Below are positions 9,583 to 35,784 of a stretch of 38,934 nucleotides of DNA, piece by piece. The stretch comes from an uncultured Eubacteriales bacterium (lineage in GTDB: Bacteria > Bacillota_I > Bacilli_A > RF39 > UBA660), in assembly GCA_900319955.1 (NCBI GenBank), contig ONQM01000007.1:1-38934 (forward strand). Direction: 5' to 3'. The notes beneath the pieces are model-generated. The model did not search any database, was not told where the DNA came from, and saw nothing but the letters and a program-made list of their open reading frames with translations. Both the position numbers and the translations under genes were made by a program. Every line of letters begins with the position of its first letter. Position 1 is the first letter of the stretch.

Positions 9583-10080
9583 CTATGCTGCAGGTACTAA
9601 TCTTAAACTAAACGAATAATAATCATTTGTAGAAACATTATTATTAGTCCAAATAGTAAAATTAAATGAATTATTACTTCCAGCTTTAACATAAGAAGTA
9701 TATAAAATATCATTACTTATCTGATCAAGAGTTCCACTAGCAACCTTATTACCATTCATAGTAAGAACAAAATTAATATTACTCCTATCAATAGTACTAT
9801 TCTTATCATTTAAAACAATATTATAACGAGAATCATATTTATTATCATTATTAATAGTAAAACTATAATTTAAATTATTATCTTTACTATTTGTATCATA
9901 CTTAATCTCAGAATTACTAAGTTCAACTGAACTGCCAGAAATAATTTTAGGATTCTTACTGTCAAAAATCTTAAAGAAACAGAAAGAAAAGAAAAATACA
10001 GCAACTATAAGAACAATAACTAAAATAATAATTAAAATATTACTTTTATCTTTTTTTTCATATTTATTATAATTTTTCAA
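9583..10080 (-). CDS. Single-pass anchored protein with beta-rich ectodomain, unknown
   Basis: Short charged N-terminus, one membrane helix (about residues 14-36), then an Asn/Ser-rich ectodomain with an alternating polar/hydrophobic pattern (SFTINNDNKYDSRYNIVL, FNFTIWTNNNV) typical of beta-sandwich folds such as TasA/camelysin. I chose TTG at 10078-10080, nine bases after GGAG and overlapping the end of the signal peptidase gene. ATG codons slightly upstream are possible. 165 residues. It may be a second substrate or partner of the signal peptidase, which is inference from gene order and fold impression. Confidence 0.65.
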   Translation of the reverse strand: MKNYNKYEKKDKSNILIIILVIVLIVAVFFFSFCFFKIFDSKNPKIISGSSVELSNSEIKYDTNSKDNNLNYSFTINNDNKYDSRYNIVLNDKNSTIDRSNINFVLTMNGNKVASGTLDQISNDILYTSYVKAGSNNSFNFTIWTNNNVSTNDYYSFSLRLVPAA

Positions 10081-10780
10081 TATTATCATCTCCATCTTCA
10101 TTTTTGTTTTCATCATCATCTAAAGATAAAACTTCAACATCTTTAAATTCATAATCATTAATTTTTTCATTTTCCTTAAGACTTTTAGAAAGCTTAAAAA
10201 TATCGTAAATAATAAGGAAAATACAAGGAATTGCAACCACTAAAATCCAACCAATAGGCTTAGATAAGAAAAATCTAACATAACCAAGCCATGGTATTAC
10301 TAAAATAACCTTACCAATAACATTACCAAATGGAACATAAGCATCATCAGGTGTTGTGTTATTGTCACCCTTTGTTTGATACTCTAAAGCACCATCATTT
10401 TTTACACTTAAGATTCTATGAGTAACAGTCTTTCCAGTATAACGCATATCAGTTGAAGAAAACGTAATAACATCATTCTTTTTTAATTTATTACTGGGTC
10501 TTACTGCAACAACTGCATCTTCAACATTAACAGTGGGAACCATACTTGGACTTATAATAACATAAGCACTTATAAGAGGTGACTTTCCATTAGTTCCAAA
10601 CTTCTTTGTATAAAAAGAATAAAAAAGTAAAACTATTAAAAGTGCAAGAATAATCGTAAAAAACAGATCACTTAAAAACTTAAATACTTTATTAAAATTA
10701 TTCATAAATTTAACATTTTTAGGAACATCATAGTAAGATTCTGCACTACTATTAATATTATCACCCCTTTTCCCTATCAT
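10067..10780 (-). CDS. sipW: SipW/ER-type signal peptidase I
   Basis: A membrane signal peptidase of the ER-like (SipW) subtype, which uses a Ser-His rather than a Ser-Lys dyad. A membrane helix at about 36-56 precedes IISPSMVPTV (catalytic Ser79). VTHRILSV supplies His121 where bacterial LepB enzymes have Lys, and KGDNN (Asp139) follows. A second membrane helix lies near 175-195, then an acidic cytoplasmic tail. In B. subtilis SipW processes TasA and TapA. The gene for a TasA-like protein is directly upstream but separated by a terminator. ATG at 10778-10780 lacks a good ribosome site. A GGGGTGATAAT sequence a few codons in hints at a later, non-canonical start. Confidence 0.92.
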   Translation of the reverse strand: MIGKRGDNINSSAESYYDVPKNVKFMNNFNKVFKFLSDLFFTIILALLIVLLFYSFYTKKFGTNGKSPLISAYVIISPSMVPTVNVEDAVVAVRPSNKLKKNDVITFSSTDMRYTGKTVTHRILSVKNDGALEYQTKGDNNTTPDDAYVPFGNVIGKVILVIPWLGYVRFFLSKPIGWILVVAIPCIFLIIYDIFKLSKSLKENEKINDYEFKDVEVLSLDDDENKNEDGDDNIEKL

Positions 10781-10849
10781 ATAACTATATATTACTACAT
10801 AAATGAAATAAAAAGAAGAAAAAAAGGCTAAAAGAAAAACACTTTACAG

Positions 10850-10882
10850 TAAAAAAAAAGAATAGCCTAAGCTATTCTCTAA
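10850..10882 (-). terminator. Strong terminator after the TasA-like gene
   Basis: On the minus strand AGAATAGC and GCTATTCT form a perfect 8-bp stem with a TTAG loop, followed by nine or more T. It makes the TasA-like gene largely monocistronic; leakage would feed the signal peptidase operon. Confidence 0.9.
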
Positions 10883-10899
10883 CTAACAAATATCAAATA

Positions 10900-11544
10900 T
10901 TAATTAGTTCCTTTACCATAAACATTAACTTTTACTTGGTAAGTATGTGCATCGCCATCAATTGTGAATGCTGAATCAACCCACATTCTCAAACGATAGT
11001 ATTTAGTTTGAAGAACGCCACTCTTAGCATTTGATGCATCAGCAGTAAATGAACCTGTTGCAAGCTTCATAGAACCAATTGGAGCTCCATAATCATCAGC
11101 TTCTGTACTAGCAGTATAAGCAGCTGGAGCAGCAACTTGAGTATAAGTTGTATTATCATCGCTTTCCTCTAAGTAAAGTCTTATATATTGATTATCTATG
11201 TTACTAGTATCTTGTTTAACAGCAACTACTTCATAATTAACTGTTGTATAACCAGTAATAGTACAAGTAACTGTGAAATCAAATGTATTATTTTCACCAG
11301 TTAAAACTTTACCTTGATCCTCAGTCATAGGAACAGCATTAGTAATATTAATACCATTTTGTGGTTCATTATAACTCATAGTTATCGTACCAGTACTAAT
11401 AGTATTAGTAGTTTCTCCTGCCTTACTATAACTAAATACAGCGAATGAAATTCCAACCACTGCAACAATAAGAATAGCAACTCCTAAAACTGAAAGTAAT
11501 ATTTGTTTAGAATTGTTATTATTCTTTTCTTTCTTTTCTTCCAT
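10900..11544 (-). CDS. TasA/camelysin-family surface protein with SipW-type signal peptide
   Basis: A secreted beta-sandwich protein of the TasA/CalY (camelysin) type, the class that forms biofilm fibres in Bacillus. It has a charged Asn/Lys N-terminus, a hydrophobic segment at about 15-33, and the characteristic GISFAVFSYSKAGETTNTIS region, in which SipW-dependent cleavage is expected around residues 35-43. The mature part is rich in Thr, Val and Tyr, with a C-terminal YQVKVNVYG strand. Length is 214 residues. ATG at 11542-11544 follows AGGAGG. Base composition is less extreme than in its neighbours (GCA, GCT and ACT codons common), as expected for a highly expressed protein. Confidence 0.85.
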   Translation of the reverse strand: MEEKKEKNNNNSKQILLSVLGVAILIVAVVGISFAVFSYSKAGETTNTISTGTITMSYNEPQNGINITNAVPMTEDQGKVLTGENNTFDFTVTCTITGYTTVNYEVVAVKQDTSNIDNQYIRLYLEESDDNTTYTQVAAPAAYTASTEADDYGAPIGSMKLATGSFTADASNAKSGVLQTKYYRLRMWVDSAFTIDGDAHTYQVKVNVYGKGTN

Positions 11545-12635: not shown

Positions 12636-14147
12636 TTAACCGTTAATTCTCATAAAAAGCGCTTCTGGTTTATTTAAAATATATTTATTATTAGAATTAA
12701 AAGTAAATTCTTTCGAAGAAGAATTAATTTCTTCTAAAATCTTTTTACTTTTATCAGGCATATAAGGTTCTAAGAGAGTGCCACAAACTCTAATAGATTC
12801 AAGTAAATTGTAAAGAACAGTCTCTAATATTTCTTTATTTTTATCATCTTTAGCAAGAACCCATGGAGCTTCAACATCAATATATTTGTTAGAATCCCTT
12901 AATAAATCAAATATATCAGTTAAACTATCTGCAACATGAAGTGTATCCATATGAGACTTAACTTTATCAAAAACACCATTTATAGAATCTATAAACTTTA
13001 ATGACTCTTCATCATTTACACCTTTATTTTCAATACTACCATCAAAATACTTAATACCCATTGAAATAGTTCTTTGAACAAGATTTCCTAAGATATTTGC
13101 AAGATCACTATTAATACGTTGTTCAACAAGTTCTTCACTAATATTACCATCATTCTCATAAGGTATTTCATGTAAAAGATAATATCTAATAGAATCAACA
13201 CCATACTTATTAACTAAATCATCAGCATATAAAACATTACCTTTACTCTTACTCATCTTATCATTATTCATTAAAAGCCAAGGATGACCAAATATTTTCT
13301 TAGGAAGAGGTAAATCTAAACTCCAAAGAAAACAAGGCCAGTAAATAGAATGAAACCTAACAATATCTTTACCAACTAAATGTAAATCACATGGCCAAAG
13401 CTTGTTAAATTCTTCACTTGACCCATCAGGATCATAGCCAATATTTGTAATATAATTTGTAAGAGCATCAAGCCATACATAAACAACATGTTTTGGATCA
13501 AATGTAACAGGTATTCCCCAATTAAAACTAGTTCTAGAAACACATAAATCTTTTAAACCAGGTTTTAAGAAATTATTAATCATTTCGTTTTTTCTAGATT
13601 CAGGTTGTATAAAGTCAGGATGATCTTCAATATATTTAATTAATCTATCTTGATACTTAGAAAGTTTAAAGAAATATGCTTCTTCTGCTACTTCCTTAAC
13701 CTCTCGCCCGCAGTCAGGACACTTACCATCAACAAGCTCAGATGGAGTCCAAAAAGACTCACATGGAGTGCAGTAAAGTCCTTTATATTCACCTTTATAA
13801 ATATCACCCTTATCATACATCTTCTTAAAAATCTTTTGAACTATTTCTTCATGATGCTTATCAGTTGTCCTAACAAACTTGTCATAACTAACATTCATCA
13901 AATCCCAAATTCTTCTAATCTCACCAGAAATATTATCAACATACTCTTGAGGACTAACACCAGCATTTTCTGCTTTTTCTTCAATCTTTATACCATGTTC
14001 ATCAGTCCCAGTTTGAAAATAAACATCATCTCCAATAAGTCTCCTAAATCTAGCTATTGCGTCTGCCAAAACTATTTCATAAGTATTACCAATATGAGGT
14101 TTAGCACTAGTATAAGCAATTGCACTACTAATATAAAATTTTCCCAT
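12636..14147 (-). CDS. metG: Methionyl-tRNA synthetase
   Basis: MetG charges tRNA(Met) with methionine. It shows ITS-like SSAIAYTSAKPHIGNTYEIV with the class-I HIGN signature, a zinc knuckle with four Cys (CTPCESFW...CPDCGREV, about residues 126-149), and the catalytic DKMSKSKGN loop. The 503-residue length is the short form: the C-terminal EMAP/Trbp111-like tRNA-binding domain found in the approximately 660-residue B. subtilis enzyme is absent. ATG at 14145-14147 follows AAGGAGGAG. Expression is controlled by the T-box leader upstream. Confidence 0.97.
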   Translation of the reverse strand: MGKFYISSAIAYTSAKPHIGNTYEIVLADAIARFRRLIGDDVYFQTGTDEHGIKIEEKAENAGVSPQEYVDNISGEIRRIWDLMNVSYDKFVRTTDKHHEEIVQKIFKKMYDKGDIYKGEYKGLYCTPCESFWTPSELVDGKCPDCGREVKEVAEEAYFFKLSKYQDRLIKYIEDHPDFIQPESRKNEMINNFLKPGLKDLCVSRTSFNWGIPVTFDPKHVVYVWLDALTNYITNIGYDPDGSSEEFNKLWPCDLHLVGKDIVRFHSIYWPCFLWSLDLPLPKKIFGHPWLLMNNDKMSKSKGNVLYADDLVNKYGVDSIRYYLLHEIPYENDGNISEELVEQRINSDLANILGNLVQRTISMGIKYFDGSIENKGVNDEESLKFIDSINGVFDKVKSHMDTLHVADSLTDIFDLLRDSNKYIDVEAPWVLAKDDKNKEILETVLYNLLESIRVCGTLLEPYMPDKSKKILEEINSSSKEFTFNSNNKYILNKPEALFMRING

Positions 14148-23243: not shown

Positions 23244-25082
23244 TTAATTTTCTACATCTAAAATATCACTAAACTCATCTAAATTACTATCATTATTTAT
23301 AACCTTAACTGAAGAATTACTTTTATCAGCAACATTATTTTCTTTATTAAAAACAAGTTCAGGCTCTTTTATTAAATCATATTTTTCATTGTTTTTAAAG
23401 TGCTTAATAAAATCATCTTTGTAAACTTTCCAATCATCAACTGAAATAATAGCAATTTTAACAACAATACCTAATTTATCTTTTATAATAGATTCCATTT
23501 TAGAAATATTAGGATAGTTTTCCACAACAATACCTTCATAATCAAAAGTAATAACAACTAAATTTTTACTAGCAACAGCAATTTTTCCATCACATAAAGT
23601 ACCACAAATTCCACCTATTTCAGGATCAATTGAAAAGTCATAAAGCTTTTTAAATAAAGAAATATAATCATTTTTAATAGATTTTGAAGCTTCACAGAAA
23701 GCATTATTAACCCTAATTTTCATAATTTCTTTAATATTAGAATTTAAAAATTTTTTATTAGAACTTAAACCACTTTTTTTATCACTTTCTGGATTTCCTT
23801 CTTCAATTATTTCTTGGGAAATATTATTATTAAAATCATTTTTTTTAACTTCAACTATTTTATTTGAAGCATTTTTGTCAGAAATTATTTCCCGGGAAAT
23901 ATTTTTTTTGAAATTATTATTTTTATTTTCTATAGTTTCACGTGAAACATTATCATTAGAATTAATTTTTTGGGAAATATTATTTTCCAAACCATTTTTA
24001 TCAATTCCTACTATTTTATTTGAAACATTTTTGTCAGAAATTATTTCCCGGGAAATAATTTTATTCTCAGAATCCATAAAATTAAGAAATAAAATTTCAA
24101 AATAAATTTTAGGATTAGAACTTAATCTAGCACTAGAAAGATTATTATTAACGAGATTAGCAAGTTTCAAATAAGATTCATTTATTTTTTTAGAAGAAAC
24201 ATAAGAATTAACTATTTTATCTTTTAAATAATTAAGAAGTTGAATCATAACTTGTAAAATATTAGTACCTCTATCATTCCAAGATTCAAGAGTTGAAACA
24301 ACTTCATTAAACTTATTTTCTGTAATGAGCTTAATAAAATTATCAATCTCATCATTAGTAATTAATCCATTTAAAGAAAGAAATTCATCTAAAGTAATTT
24401 CTTTATTTGAAAAAGAACTTACCTTATCAAGTAGACTAATAGAATCTCTCATACCACCATCAGAAATAATAGCAATCTCTTTTAAAACATCATCAGAAAC
24501 TTTAATATTTTCATTTTCGGATATCATTCTTAAATTATTAACAATATTATTTTCAGAAATTCTATTAAAATTAAAGCATTGACAACGTGAAACAATAGTT
24601 GCTGGAACCTTTTGAGGATCAGTAGTTGCAAGAATAAAAATAACATAATCCGGAGGTTCCTCAATAGTTTTTAAAAGAGCATTAAAAGCTTCATTTGTAA
24701 GCATATGAACTTCATCAATAATATAAACTTTATACTTTAAAGTAGAAGGAACAATATTAACTTTATCTATTAGATCACGAATATTATCTATCTTTCTATT
24801 AGAAGCAGCATCCATTTCAATAATATCAAGTGAATTAATTGAAGCTAAACAACCATCGCACTTTCCACAAATATCACCATCATTTGAATTTAAACAATTA
24901 ACTGCTCTAGCAAAGATTTTAGCAGTAGAAGTCTTACCAGTACCTCTAGGACCAATAAATAAATAAGCATGTGAAATATGATTATTTTTTATAGAATTTT
25001 TTAATATTTTAACAATAGAATCTTGTCCAACAATTTCACTAAAATTCCTAGGTCTATATTTTCTATATAAAGTTTGATACAT
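23244..25082 (-). CDS. dnaX: DNA polymerase III gamma/tau subunit DnaX
   Basis: Clamp-loader ATPase that ties the polymerase to the helicase. Walker A GPRGTGKTSTAK, a zinc-binding module (CLNSNDGDICGKCDGC), IDEVHMLTNEAFNALLKTIEEPP and the SRC motif (VSRCQCFNF) are all present. Residues about 340-430 form an unusual low-complexity linker made of repeats (ISREIISDKNxSNKIV, NVSRETI, ISQEII) that are encoded by Noc- and parS-type palindromes. Two 47-bp direct repeats (23854-23900 and 24010-24056) differ by one base. The C-terminal tau-like domain follows. ATG at 25080-25082 has GGAG upstream. 612 residues. Confidence 0.96.
   Translation of the reverse strand: MYQTLYRKYRPRNFSEIVGQDSIVKILKNSIKNNHISHAYLFIGPRGTGKTSTAKIFARAVNCLNSNDGDICGKCDGCLASINSLDIIEMDAASNRKIDNIRDLIDKVNIVPSTLKYKVYIIDEVHMLTNEAFNALLKTIEEPPDYVIFILATTDPQKVPATIVSRCQCFNFNRISENNIVNNLRMISENENIKVSDDVLKEIAIISDGGMRDSISLLDKVSSFSNKEITLDEFLSLNGLITNDEIDNFIKLITENKFNEVVSTLESWNDRGTNILQVMIQLLNYLKDKIVNSYVSSKKINESYLKLANLVNNNLSSARLSSNPKIYFEILFLNFMDSENKIISREIISDKNVSNKIVGIDKNGLENNISQKINSNDNVSRETIENKNNNFKKNISREIISDKNASNKIVEVKKNDFNNNISQEIIEEGNPESDKKSGLSSNKKFLNSNIKEIMKIRVNNAFCEASKSIKNDYISLFKKLYDFSIDPEIGGICGTLCDGKIAVASKNLVVITFDYEGIVVENYPNISKMESIIKDKLGIVVKIAIISVDDWKVYKDDFIKHFKNNEKYDLIKEPELVFNKENNVADKSNSSVKVINNDSNLDEFSDILDVEN
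23809..23822. promoter_or_regulatory. Degenerate Noc-type site inside dnaX
   Basis: ATTTCTTGGGAAAT, two mismatches to the Noc consensus ATTTCCCGGGAAAT, in the coding sequence of the DnaX linker (read as ISQEI). Confidence 0.4.
23854..23900. repeat. 47-bp direct repeat copy 1 in dnaX, ending in a Noc site
   Basis: This stretch is 46/47 identical to 24010-24056. Both copies end with a perfect ATTTCCCGGGAAAT and encode the same peptide block (ISREIISDKN, V or A, SNKIV). They look like an in-frame tandem-type duplication carrying the palindrome. Confidence 0.9.
23887..23900. promoter_or_regulatory. Noc binding site (NBS) inside dnaX
   Basis: A perfect ATTTCCCGGGAAAT palindrome, identical to the B. 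subtilis Noc consensus as I remember it. It is translated as ISREI at about residues 394-398. Confidence 0.8.
23934..23949. promoter_or_regulatory. parS site inside dnaX
   Basis: GTTTCACGTGAAAC is a perfect 14-bp palindrome (23935-23948) equal to the core of the Firmicutes parS consensus TGTTNCACGTGAAACA. It is read as VSRET at about residues 379-383 of DnaX. Confidence 0.85.
23965..23978. promoter_or_regulatory. Decayed Noc-type site inside dnaX
   Basis: ATTTTTTGGGAAAT keeps one half of the palindrome (GGGAAAT) and has three mismatches in the other. It encodes ISQKI. Confidence 0.3.
24010..24056. repeat. 47-bp direct repeat copy 2 in dnaX
   Basis: Second copy of the 47-bp repeat; the single difference from copy 1 changes Ala to Val in the encoded peptide. 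Confidence 0.9.
24043..24056. promoter_or_regulatory. Noc binding site (NBS) inside dnaX
   Basis: A perfect ATTTCCCGGGAAAT, continuing as a longer near-palindrome (AATTATTTCCC / GGGAAATAATT), read as ISREI at about residues 343-347. Confidence 0.8.
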
Positions 25083-25136: not shown

Positions 25137-25583
25137 TTAACGTTTTAATTTAAAAAAATTATCGACAAGCTCTTTACAATCAGAAGAAAGATATCCACAA
25201 GAAAAGTTAACTAAGTGATTCCCGAATCTATTAGAAAATATAGAAATAATAGTTTCATGTGAAACATTATCAAAAGAAGTTAACCCACAAAAAACATTAT
25301 TTATACGAGCTTGTTTAATTGCAGATGCACACATAGGACAAGGTTCCAAAGTTACATAAAGATCACAACCATCAAGTCTCCAATTATTTAGATAAGAAGA
25401 AGCATTTTCCACAGCAATTAATTCAGCATGCCTAGTAACAGACATTAAATTCTCCTTTAAATTATGGCCTTTTGCGATAATACTATTATTTTTAACTATA
25501 ATACAACCAATAGGAACTTCACCCATTTTAAAAGCAATTTTTGCCTCATTAATAGCTTCTTTCATAAATAATTCATTGTACAT
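25137..25583 (-). CDS. tadA: tRNA adenosine(34) deaminase TadA
   Basis: TadA deaminates A34 of tRNA(Arg) to inosine. The zinc/catalytic motifs are RHAELIAV (His52, Glu54) and LEPCPMCASAI (Cys82, Cys85). GEVPIGCIIV is also typical. The ATG at 25581-25583 has GGAGGAAATT upstream; a longer reading would start inside the SRP RNA and is rejected. 148 residues. Residues 105-112 (DNVSHETI) are encoded by a parS-like sequence, matching the DNVSRETI block in DnaX. The tadA/SRP RNA/dnaX grouping is as in B. subtilis, although the RNA lies on the other side of tadA here. Confidence 0.96.
   Translation of the reverse strand: MYNELFMKEAINEAKIAFKMGEVPIGCIIVKNNSIIAKGHNLKENLMSVTRHAELIAVENASSYLNNWRLDGCDLYVTLEPCPMCASAIKQARINNVFCGLTSFDNVSHETIISIFSNRFGNHLVNFSCGYLSSDCKELVDNFFKLKR
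25251..25266. promoter_or_regulatory. parS-like site inside tadA (one centre mismatch)
   Basis: AGTTTCATGTGAAACA differs from the parS palindrome only at the centre (CATGTG instead of CACGTG). On the minus strand it shares a longer stretch beginning GATAATGTTTCAC (A for G two bases on) with the parS site in dnaX. Confidence 0.6.
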
Positions 25584-25593
25584 AATTTCCTCC

Positions 25594-25675
25594 ACAAAAA
25601 AAGTGCACATAAATTTAAATGAATTGGCTGCTGTCTTCCAACTCTGACCAGTTGTTCAAATAAACTTATTGCACA
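25594..25675 (-). ncRNA. ffs: Small signal recognition particle RNA (SRP RNA)
   Basis: The minus strand contains CTGGTCAGAGTTGGAAGACA followed by GCAGCCA, the helix-8 domain that binds Ffh: the GGAA tetraloop closed by GTT/GAC, and the asymmetric loop formed by GTCAG and GCAG. The flanks pair over their whole length (GTGC...TTGAA at the 5' side with TTCA...TGTGCAC at the 3' side). The transcript ends in a T run just before the tadA ribosome site. It is about 75-80 nt, the short bacterial 4.5S form without an Alu domain. Confidence 0.9.
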
Positions 25676-25714
25676 AATAGATATTAACACAAAATAAATA
25701 AAAAATAAATACTA

Positions 25715-25738
25715 AAATTATTTCCCGGGAAATAATTT
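25715..25738. promoter_or_regulatory. Noc binding site, 24-bp perfect palindrome
   Basis: The core ATTTCCCGGGAAAT is extended on both sides (AAATT / AATTT) to a perfect 24-bp palindrome centred between 25726 and 25727. Confidence 0.85.
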
Positions 25739-25803
25739 AAAAAAATAAATATCCATAAGCAAATTTAAATAAAAAATAAAACATTCTACACAATTATTTA
25801 CTT

Positions 25804-25843
25804 TATAAACAAAAATTGTGGAAAACATGTTTCACGTGGAACA
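25804..25843. repeat. 40-bp DnaA-box/parS unit, copy 1
   Basis: Layout: TATAAACAAAAA, T, TGTGGAAAA (DnaA-box-like, complement TTTTCCACA), CA, then parS TGTTTCACGTGGAACA at 25828-25843. Copies 2 and 3 are at 26040-26079 and 26344-26383. Confidence 0.85.
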
Positions 25844-25886
25844 TAAAATAATTTTTTTATAATAAAATTTTAAAAAATCATATAGA

Positions 25887-25910
25887 AAATTATTTCCCGG
25901 GAAATAATTT
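25887..25910. promoter_or_regulatory. Noc binding site, 24-bp perfect palindrome
   Basis: Identical 24-bp palindrome to the one at 25715-25738, centred between 25898 and 25899. Confidence 0.85.
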
Positions 25911-26039
25911 GTAAAAAAAATTAATATAAAGTTAAATTATTACATAAAAAAATATTAAATAATAAAATAGCTAAATAATATTGTTAATAAAAATAAAATA
26001 TTAAATAAATATGTGAAAAAAATATATAAAATTTATTGT

Positions 26040-26079
26040 TATAAACAAAAACTGTGGAAAACATGTTCCACGTGGAACT
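26040..26079. repeat. 40-bp DnaA-box/parS unit, copy 2
   Basis: Differs from copy 1 at three positions. The parS core is GTTCCACGTGGAAC (26065-26078), a perfect palindrome. The DnaA-box-like TGTGGAAAA is at the same fixed distance. Confidence 0.85.
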
Positions 26080-26112
26080 ATAATTTATTTATATAATTTC
26101 GCTTTAAATATA

Positions 26113-26136
26113 AAATTACTTCCAAGTAAAAATTTT
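26113..26136. promoter_or_regulatory. Decayed Noc-type site
   Basis: AAATTACTTCCAAGTAAA matches the 24-bp NBS at about 18 of 24 positions, with the CCCGGG core lost. It occupies the place where the alternation predicts an NBS. Confidence 0.3.
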
Positions 26137-26239
26137 TATACAGATAAAATTAATTTAATAAAATTAAACAGTAATCTGTGAAAAAAAGAAATTCTAATAA
26201 ATTAAATTTAAAATATAAAAAATAATTGTGAAAAAAAGA

Positions 26240-26260
26240 GAATATAGTCCACGTAAAAAA
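26240..26260. promoter_or_regulatory. Decayed parS-type site
   Basis: TCCACGT (26248-26254) remains of the parS core. ATTGTGAAAAAAAG just before it looks like a decayed DnaA-box-like half of the 40-bp unit. Confidence 0.3.
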
Positions 26261-26295
26261 ATAATAACTAAAAATAACATCAAATAATAATCAAA

Positions 26296-26313
26296 TTATT
26301 TCCCGGGAAATAA
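26296..26313. promoter_or_regulatory. Noc binding site, 18-bp palindrome
   Basis: TTATTTCCCGGGAAATAA, perfect over 18 bp. Confidence 0.85.
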
Positions 26314-26343
26314 AAAAAATTTAATTAATAATGAAAAATAAAT

Positions 26344-26383
26344 TATGAACAAAATCTGTGGAAAACATGTTCCACGTGAAACT
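26344..26383. repeat. 40-bp DnaA-box/parS unit, copy 3
   Basis: Same layout as copies 1 and 2, with parS TGTTCCACGTGAAACT at 26368-26383 and TGTGGAAAA at the same spacing. Confidence 0.85.
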
Positions 26384-26417
26384 ACATTCTAATATATATT
26401 TTTGCTATATAAGTGAA

Positions 26418-26443
26418 GAAATTATTTCCCAGGAAATAATTTC
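26418..26443. promoter_or_regulatory. Noc-type site with one centre mismatch
   Basis: A 26-bp palindrome centred on TTTCCCAGGAAA. Only the central base pair breaks symmetry. Confidence 0.7.
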
Positions 26444-26510
26444 AATAAAAAAATTATTGGGAAATATTTGTTAACAAAAAAATAGATGATTTTTAATTAT
26501 TAATAGCTTC

Positions 26511-26547
26511 TGTGGATAAATATATTTATATGTTCCACGTGGAACAT
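26511..26547. promoter_or_regulatory. Perfect DnaA box followed by perfect parS
   Basis: TGTGGATAA (26511-26519; TTATCCACA on the other strand) lies 11 bp from TGTTCCACGTGGAACA (26531-26546), which extends to an 18-bp palindrome. The spacing differs from that in the 40-bp units. Confidence 0.8.
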
Positions 26548-26614
26548 TGTTAATTTAAAATAATTAGATTATTTCCCACAAATTAAAAAGTAAACAAATG
26601 TTTATAAAATTAAT

Positions 26615-26645
26615 AAAGAAAAATTACTACTTTATTCAGTAGTAA
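26615..26645 (-). terminator. Terminator after gyrA
   Basis: On the minus strand TTACTAC and GTAGTAA pair around the gyrA stop codon and are followed by TTTTT. Confidence 0.65.
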
Positions 26646-35546: not shown

Positions 35547-35672
35547 TATACCATCTCCCCACAATCAATTTATACCAAATATAATAAACTACTTTGTTGA
35601 AAAAAGAAATAGTTTTTTTAAACTTTTTTTATCCACAATTTATGAACAGGGTTTATCCACAATTAAAAACAT

Positions 35673-35679
35673 TGTCGAA
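35673..35679 (+). promoter_or_regulatory. Spo0A box within oriC
   Basis: A single TGTCGAA lies between the second and third DnaA boxes. In B. subtilis Spo0A binds oriC sites and restrains initiation during sporulation. Confidence 0.45.
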
Positions 35680-35784
35680 TAAAGATAAATAAGACTTTTC
35701 CACATTTTCCACAGATTTTATAATTAACATAGTGAAAAAAGTTATAAACAAGTATGTTAACTTGTGTGGAAAACAAAAATTTTA

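Follow-up and report, generated by a model that had tools for sequence, protein, structure and literature searches.

Interleaved parS, Noc-binding and putative DnaA sites downstream of gyrA in an uncultured member of the Bacilli

The centromere of Caulobacter crescentus lies 8 kb from ori, and binding of DnaA there is reported to allow segregation (Mera et al. 2014, as cited in PMC6399470 and PMC6667618). On chromosome II of Vibrio cholerae, the rctA/parS2 locus unites sites for an initiator (RctB) and a centromere protein (ParB2), linking replication with segregation. Chromosomal ParABS systems (soj-spo0J-parS) combine neighboring ParA and ParB with consensus 16-bp parS clustered near oriC. 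Bacillus subtilis and Staphylococcus aureus additionally possess Noc and Noc-binding sites (NBS), dozens of which are scattered along the chromosome near the origin, with 41 loci bound by Noc in S. aureus (PMC5540599). The NBS consensus is TATTTCCCGGGAAATA, and four protein positions decide between parS and NBS, one lysine out of two being enough (PMC7383237). In B. subtilis, Noc bears an N-terminal membrane-targeting segment of ~10 residues (PMC8429893). The closest Noc precedent is that of S. aureus, where Noc restrains initiation.

The locus described here was found in a window of 38,934 nucleotides (the whole stretch of DNA analyzed) from a draft genome of 1.24 Mb. It resembles the Caulobacter centromere, the proposed trigger of segregation in that organism, in having DnaA-box matches at parS close to the origin (~9 kb here, ~8 kb there). 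However, DnaA binding is reported for Caulobacter, whereas here the sites are predicted from the sequence. Compared with Caulobacter, the present locus also stands out by several parS with a box at 2 bp, a repeated unit, interleaved Noc sites and a host among Noc-encoding Bacilli. The V. cholerae locus likewise joins initiator and centromere sites, but its initiator is RctB and it resides on a secondary chromosome. The genome conforms to chromosomal ParABS in that 16-bp parS cluster near oriC and both ParA and ParB are encoded side by side, but here parS are concentrated in one gap by gyrA and mixed with Noc sites. The NBS consensus is the same as in B. subtilis and S. aureus. In contrast to the dozens of dispersed sites in those bacteria, only a handful are present, clustered with parS: all five exact NBS matches in the draft genome fall within the window, and exact matches thus give no spread across the origin-proximal chromosome. 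In the open-access literature, we found no description of such a mixed parS/NBS/DnaA-box locus.

Sites in the gyrA–tadA gap and in dnaX

The window contains, all pointing leftward, dnaA, dnaN, recF, gyrB, gyrA, a gap of 1021 bp (25611–26631), tadA and dnaX. Gene names were read off translations, with support from a family search (DnaA) and from tblastn in related records. The likely oriC, at about 35.6–35.8 kb, is ~9 kb from the parS cluster. Coordinates of all sites are given in the table.

Coordinates of predicted sites and RNA genes in the window, ordered by position
Feature	Position	Strand	Remarks
NBS in dnaX	23886..23901		read as ISREI
parS in dnaX	23934..23949		read as VSRET
NBS in dnaX	24042..24057		read as ISREI
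Degenerate parS in tadA	25251..25266		AGTTTCATGTGAAACA
Bacterial small SRP RNA gene	25597–25677	-	Rfam RF00169; between tadA and the parS/NBS cluster
NBS 1	25719..25734		TATTTCCCGGGAAATA; consensus per PMC7383237
Possible second weak inverted DnaA box, unit 1	25803..25811	+	TTATAAACA; 5 nt from the TTTTCCACA box
Putative DnaA box, 2 bp from parS 1	25817..25825	-	TTTTCCACA; sequence match
parS 1	25828..25843		TGTTTCACGTGGAACA; 0 mismatches to TGTTYCACGTGRAACA
NBS 2	25891..25906		exact
Possible weak DnaA box, unit 2	26039..26047	+	TTATAAACA; sequence only
Putative DnaA box, 2 bp from parS 2	26053..26061	-	TTTTCCACA; sequence match
parS 2	26064..26079		TGTTCCACGTGGAACT
NBS 3	26297..26312		exact
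Possible weak DnaA box, unit 3	26343..26351	+	TTATGAACA; same 9-mer at oriC (35640–35648)
Putative DnaA box, 2 bp from parS 3	26357..26365	-	TTTTCCACA; sequence match
parS 3	26368..26383		TGTTCCACGTGAAACT
NBS 4	26423..26438		one mismatch, TATTTCCCAGGAAATA
Exact DnaA box, 11 bp from parS 4	26511..26519	-	TTATCCACA; sequence match
parS 4	26531..26546		TGTTCCACGTGGAACA
Likely oriC	35629..35713	+	two TTATCCACA, one TTATGAACA, two TTTTCCACA; upstream of dnaA

The initial annotation had described three 40-bp units that join a DnaA-box-like word to parS at fixed spacing. The units indeed start at 25804, 26040 and 26344, exactly as claimed, and in 3/3 of them TGTGGAAAA lies 2 bp from the 16-bp parS (3 bp from its GTT core). 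The exact box TGTGGATAA described beside the fourth parS is likewise present at the claimed distance. Pairwise identity of the units is 93, 85 and 93% within the 40 bp, compared with 53, 42 and 33% in the preceding 40 bp and 47, 38 and 38% in the following 40 bp. Because identity drops so sharply outside the units, the three equal spacings are to be read as one duplicated unit and not as independent events, that is, as a single arrangement either kept or recently copied. The window has six parS-like sites (≤3 mismatches) against 0.17 expected, and we rejected a chance origin of the repeats on the basis of this excess and of the difference between unit and flank identity. Genome-wide counts come from searching for the patterns either exactly or with a few mismatches allowed; in these, all parS of the genome with ≤1 mismatch fall in the window.

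What the initial annotation overlooked is that the same 1-kb gap holds NBS, three exact and one with a single mismatch, so arranged that the order is strictly alternating: NBS-parS-NBS-parS-NBS-parS-NBS-parS. It also missed a further NBS-parS-NBS series inside dnaX. The strongest other words of the gap (CAGGTCAG, GGCTGCTA and others) were considered as a possible new motif and dismissed, since they belong to the SRP RNA gene. Elsewhere in the window, a T-box leader (RF00230; 14184–14387, minus strand) lies upstream of an ORF (12636–14147) that reads as methionyl-tRNA synthetase, and at 9583–11544 a signal-peptidase-like ORF adjoins one that, by reading, encodes a small secreted coat-like protein.

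Is the word within the units a DnaA box? Across the family of the window, TTTTCCACA occurs 8.46 times per 10 kb at oriC compared with 0.99 in coding DNA, and the exact box TTATCCACA 4.16 compared with 0.41 times. Since TTTTCCACA is enriched at oriC family-wide, it can be read as a DnaA box, and these densities support that assignment for the units. The units may, on weak grounds, include a second, inverted weak box (TTATAAACA or TTATGAACA). At the likely oriC, TTATGAACA lies between two exact boxes TTATCCACA. Two other genera have modules in which a similar word sits where the second box lies in the units, at a spacing picked post hoc. TTATGAACA showed no family-wide enrichment at oriC, and for this reason the second box stays a suggestion.

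Noc, Soj and Spo0J of the genome

The genes for Noc, Soj and Spo0J are on another contig of the genome (C64), in the B. subtilis-like order gidA-gidB-noc-soj-spo0J. Noc has 489 aa and ParB 297 aa. Among solved structures, this Noc is closest to two Noc entries, 7ng0 and 7nfu; its best family match, NCBIfam TIGR04285, scores 293.4 bits, below the cut-off of 315. The four residues that set specificity are Q-K-T-R in Noc and R-T-S-G in ParB, the latter including the R173/G201-type ParB residues. The pattern Q-K-x-R, shared with B. subtilis and S. aureus, was present in 20/20 Nocs taken as a sample from further family genomes. Thus, the genome combines TATTTCCCGGGAAATA sites with a Noc orthologue encoded beside gidB and soj that has Q-K-(K)-R-type residues.

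The Nocs differ from their B. subtilis and S. aureus counterparts at the N-terminus. Judged by length and inspection, neither the Noc of the genome nor the 20 sampled Nocs have the amphipathic membrane-targeting segment of ~10 residues, although starts are possibly misplaced; a short leader alone precedes the ParB N-terminal domain. The Nocs of the family are long, at 395–595 aa (C64 of the window genome, L364–L383).

Conservation across the family

For comparison, 120 gyrA-centered loci were fetched, about one per genus of the family, plus congeners; all compared genomes are draft assemblies, in which array ends often are contig ends. In 121 gyrA loci, almost all parS lie 0–2 kb and most NBS 0–3 kb downstream of the gyrA stop. 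Downstream sequence reached 3 kb or more in 91 loci, and of these, 85 have parS, 59 have NBS and 56 have both. As judged from these loci, the family generally has parS/NBS clusters downstream of gyrA. In the 45 loci with at least two sites of each kind, parS and NBS switch 164 times compared with 146 in shuffled orders (48 of 5000 shuffles are as high), an excess to which tandem duplication of mixed units contributes. Two loci (L023 and L037) have tandem parS arrays downstream of gyrA with a period of ~37 bp, in 7 and 10 copies, and a third (L043, position 1429) has a parS/NBS hybrid, TATTTCACGTGAAATA, beside gyrA.

NBS within coding sequence were found in 33/94 dnaX genes, that of the window, at 23244–25082, included, compared with three NBS in a control of 121 × 8 kb of upstream coding DNA. 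They map near residues 340–395, in a region of DnaX that is probably a linker. Since they are read in two different frames, as ISREI or as FPGN, it is the DNA and not the protein that is kept.

Exact NBS occur in 106/145 family genomes, with no matches for the reversed control. NBS 10–40 bp from parS were present in 15/54 family genomes compared with 0/341 genomes when the search was extended to other families of the class. A phylum-level sample gave matches in family members only, but it adds little because all its genomes belong to that same class. The mixed ParB/Noc centromere predicted here seems peculiar to the family of the window.

The specific 40-bp unit, searched for as TGTGG-NNN-ACATG-parS with ≤2 mismatches, was found in 0/7 congeners, and the exact 40-bp composite was also absent from all seven. 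parS itself is kept at gyrA in 6/6 congeners whose gyrA locus was found. By this comparison, the window's species alone has the exact 40-bp unit. Judged by the condition for refutation set in the initial annotation, the proposed link between box and parS fails for the specific unit, in addition to having left out Noc, but stands as a general pairing: TTATCCACA lies ≤12 bp from parS in 9 of the 99 genera that have parS in the gap, compared with 2.1–2.8 expected when boxes are randomly relocated within each gap (p 5e-5 to 4.5e-4). When TTATCCACA is compared with 1680 permutations of its letters, the true box ranks first with nine genera, the next reaching four and the mean being 0.065 genera; it is also the commonest 9-mer beside parS among those with at least three G/C. 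On these counts, DnaA boxes pair with parS recurrently and not at random.

Elsewhere in the family, exact boxes next to parS recur in two geometries. One is parS-NN-TTWTCCACA, which the window shares with G101 and the genus of G147; the other is TTATCCACA-A-parS (G003, which belongs to the same genus as the window, as well as G057, G027 and others). Of 386 family genomes, 11 have the former (gap 0–4) and 14 the latter (gap 0–5), 25 in total. Boxes abutting parS in the two orientations are found in ~17/150 genera of this set, with no reversed-control matches; the reversed patterns are not anchored on parS, and the relocation and permutation tests are the fairer controls. In several genera, NBS, DnaA box and parS come within ~60 bp, and in some they are joined directly; examples are G375 (L344), with three copies of NBS-A-TTTTCCACA-N-parS, G049 (L092), G295 (L357) and L221. 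On the GyrA tree (FastTree; 114 labelled rows), the box-beside-parS label changes at least six times, and because of this the box is unlikely to go back to one inheritance. In the closest relative (82% identity in the C-terminal part of GyrA), an exact box lies 1 bp from parS in the opposite orientation. With this difference in geometry and at least six changes on the tree, a single conserved ancestral composite is unsupported. About 90% of genera in the family have no DnaA box beside parS; therefore, the family cannot depend on such a box for coupling.

Among the matches listed from a scan of all bacteria for parS plus box, several have only degenerate parS. The listed Devosia matches (L207, L210, L218, L247, L258, L270, L282) share GATTCACGTGRAACA, a degenerate parS-like word 1 bp from TTATCCACA, and those of Emticicia (L215, L227, L231) share another such word, 5 bp from the box. 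Also among the matches listed are Deferribacterota with parS 6 bp from a DnaA box (L249, L273, L279, L281), two of these four records carrying gyrA as well.

Possible roles of the locus

We consider it probable that the locus is a ParB/Noc centromere with repeatedly recruited DnaA sites, which probably couples initiation to segregation as reported for Caulobacter. The gyrA–tadA gap, with its extension in dnaX, would be the origin-proximal centromere of the chromosome. If they behave like known members of their families, Spo0J would load at parS and Noc at NBS, both as CTP-dependent clamps, and Spo0J would recruit Soj together with SMC to the region around the origin. Less certainly, DnaA directly beside parS might contact the ParB/Soj complex, bringing origin segregation in step with DnaA activity, and/or Soj and Noc might act on DnaA at the centromere. 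DnaA sites would have been added several times onto a common parS/NBS background rather than inherited as one element. Against a part for DnaA speaks that the boxes of the three units are of the variant TTTTCCACA.

The duplication of the unit bears directly on this proposal. The three copies share a duplicated unit, so their equal spacing is one event, and the DnaA-box-like word might be a mere part of the duplicated segment, with no role of its own in an otherwise real parS/Noc cluster. The absence of the unit from seven congeners and the lack of a box by parS in most genera agree with such an account. We nevertheless regard it as rather unlikely, since unrelated parS elsewhere have exact boxes at 0–5 bp, far above chance and with at least six changes on the tree, and since the fourth parS of the window, outside the units, also has its exact box.

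If, on the other hand, the boxes do bind DnaA, they could serve as a sink that titrates it off oriC or tunes its nucleotide state (datA/DARS-like), their proximity to parS being incidental. Several boxes 9 kb from oriC would suit this role, as would the enrichment of boxes across the gap as a whole, beyond the parS neighborhood. However, just four boxes were counted in the gap, fewer than in the dnaA/oriC region, and boxes in the gap are closer to parS than under random placement, which makes a sink decidedly unlikely. It is very improbable, finally, that TGTGGAAAA is an extra ParB half-site of an enlarged parS. Its GTGGAA is common to the parS half CGTGGAAC and also occurs in the window's parS variant GTTCCACGTGGAAC, yet other genera have TTATCCACA/TGTGGATAA, in which the half-site is broken and the DnaA box is exact. 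Word counts beside parS disfavor the half-site as well: TTATCCACA/TGTGGATAA is the top word, and its one-mismatch neighbors are rare.

Beyond a centromere with recruited DnaA sites, it is conceivable, and we put this forward tentatively, that the locus acts as a hub. In this family of uncultured Bacilli, Noc would have quit genome-wide, membrane-bound nucleoid occlusion and would now serve, within the origin region only, as a second centromere protein; DnaA sites would have been added repeatedly beside parS/NBS, and initiation, segregation and division would be integrated in one place.

The locus bears on how bacteria link replication initiation with origin segregation and division. In the family of the window, nature has produced many variants of a compact locus that physically joins ParB, Noc and DnaA sites, and the convergent pattern among them makes the link testable through site swaps. 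The data also suggest another use of Noc, limited to the origin and without the known membrane anchor. In this bacterium, one small stretch of DNA may tie together the copying, the moving and the dividing of the chromosome and cell.
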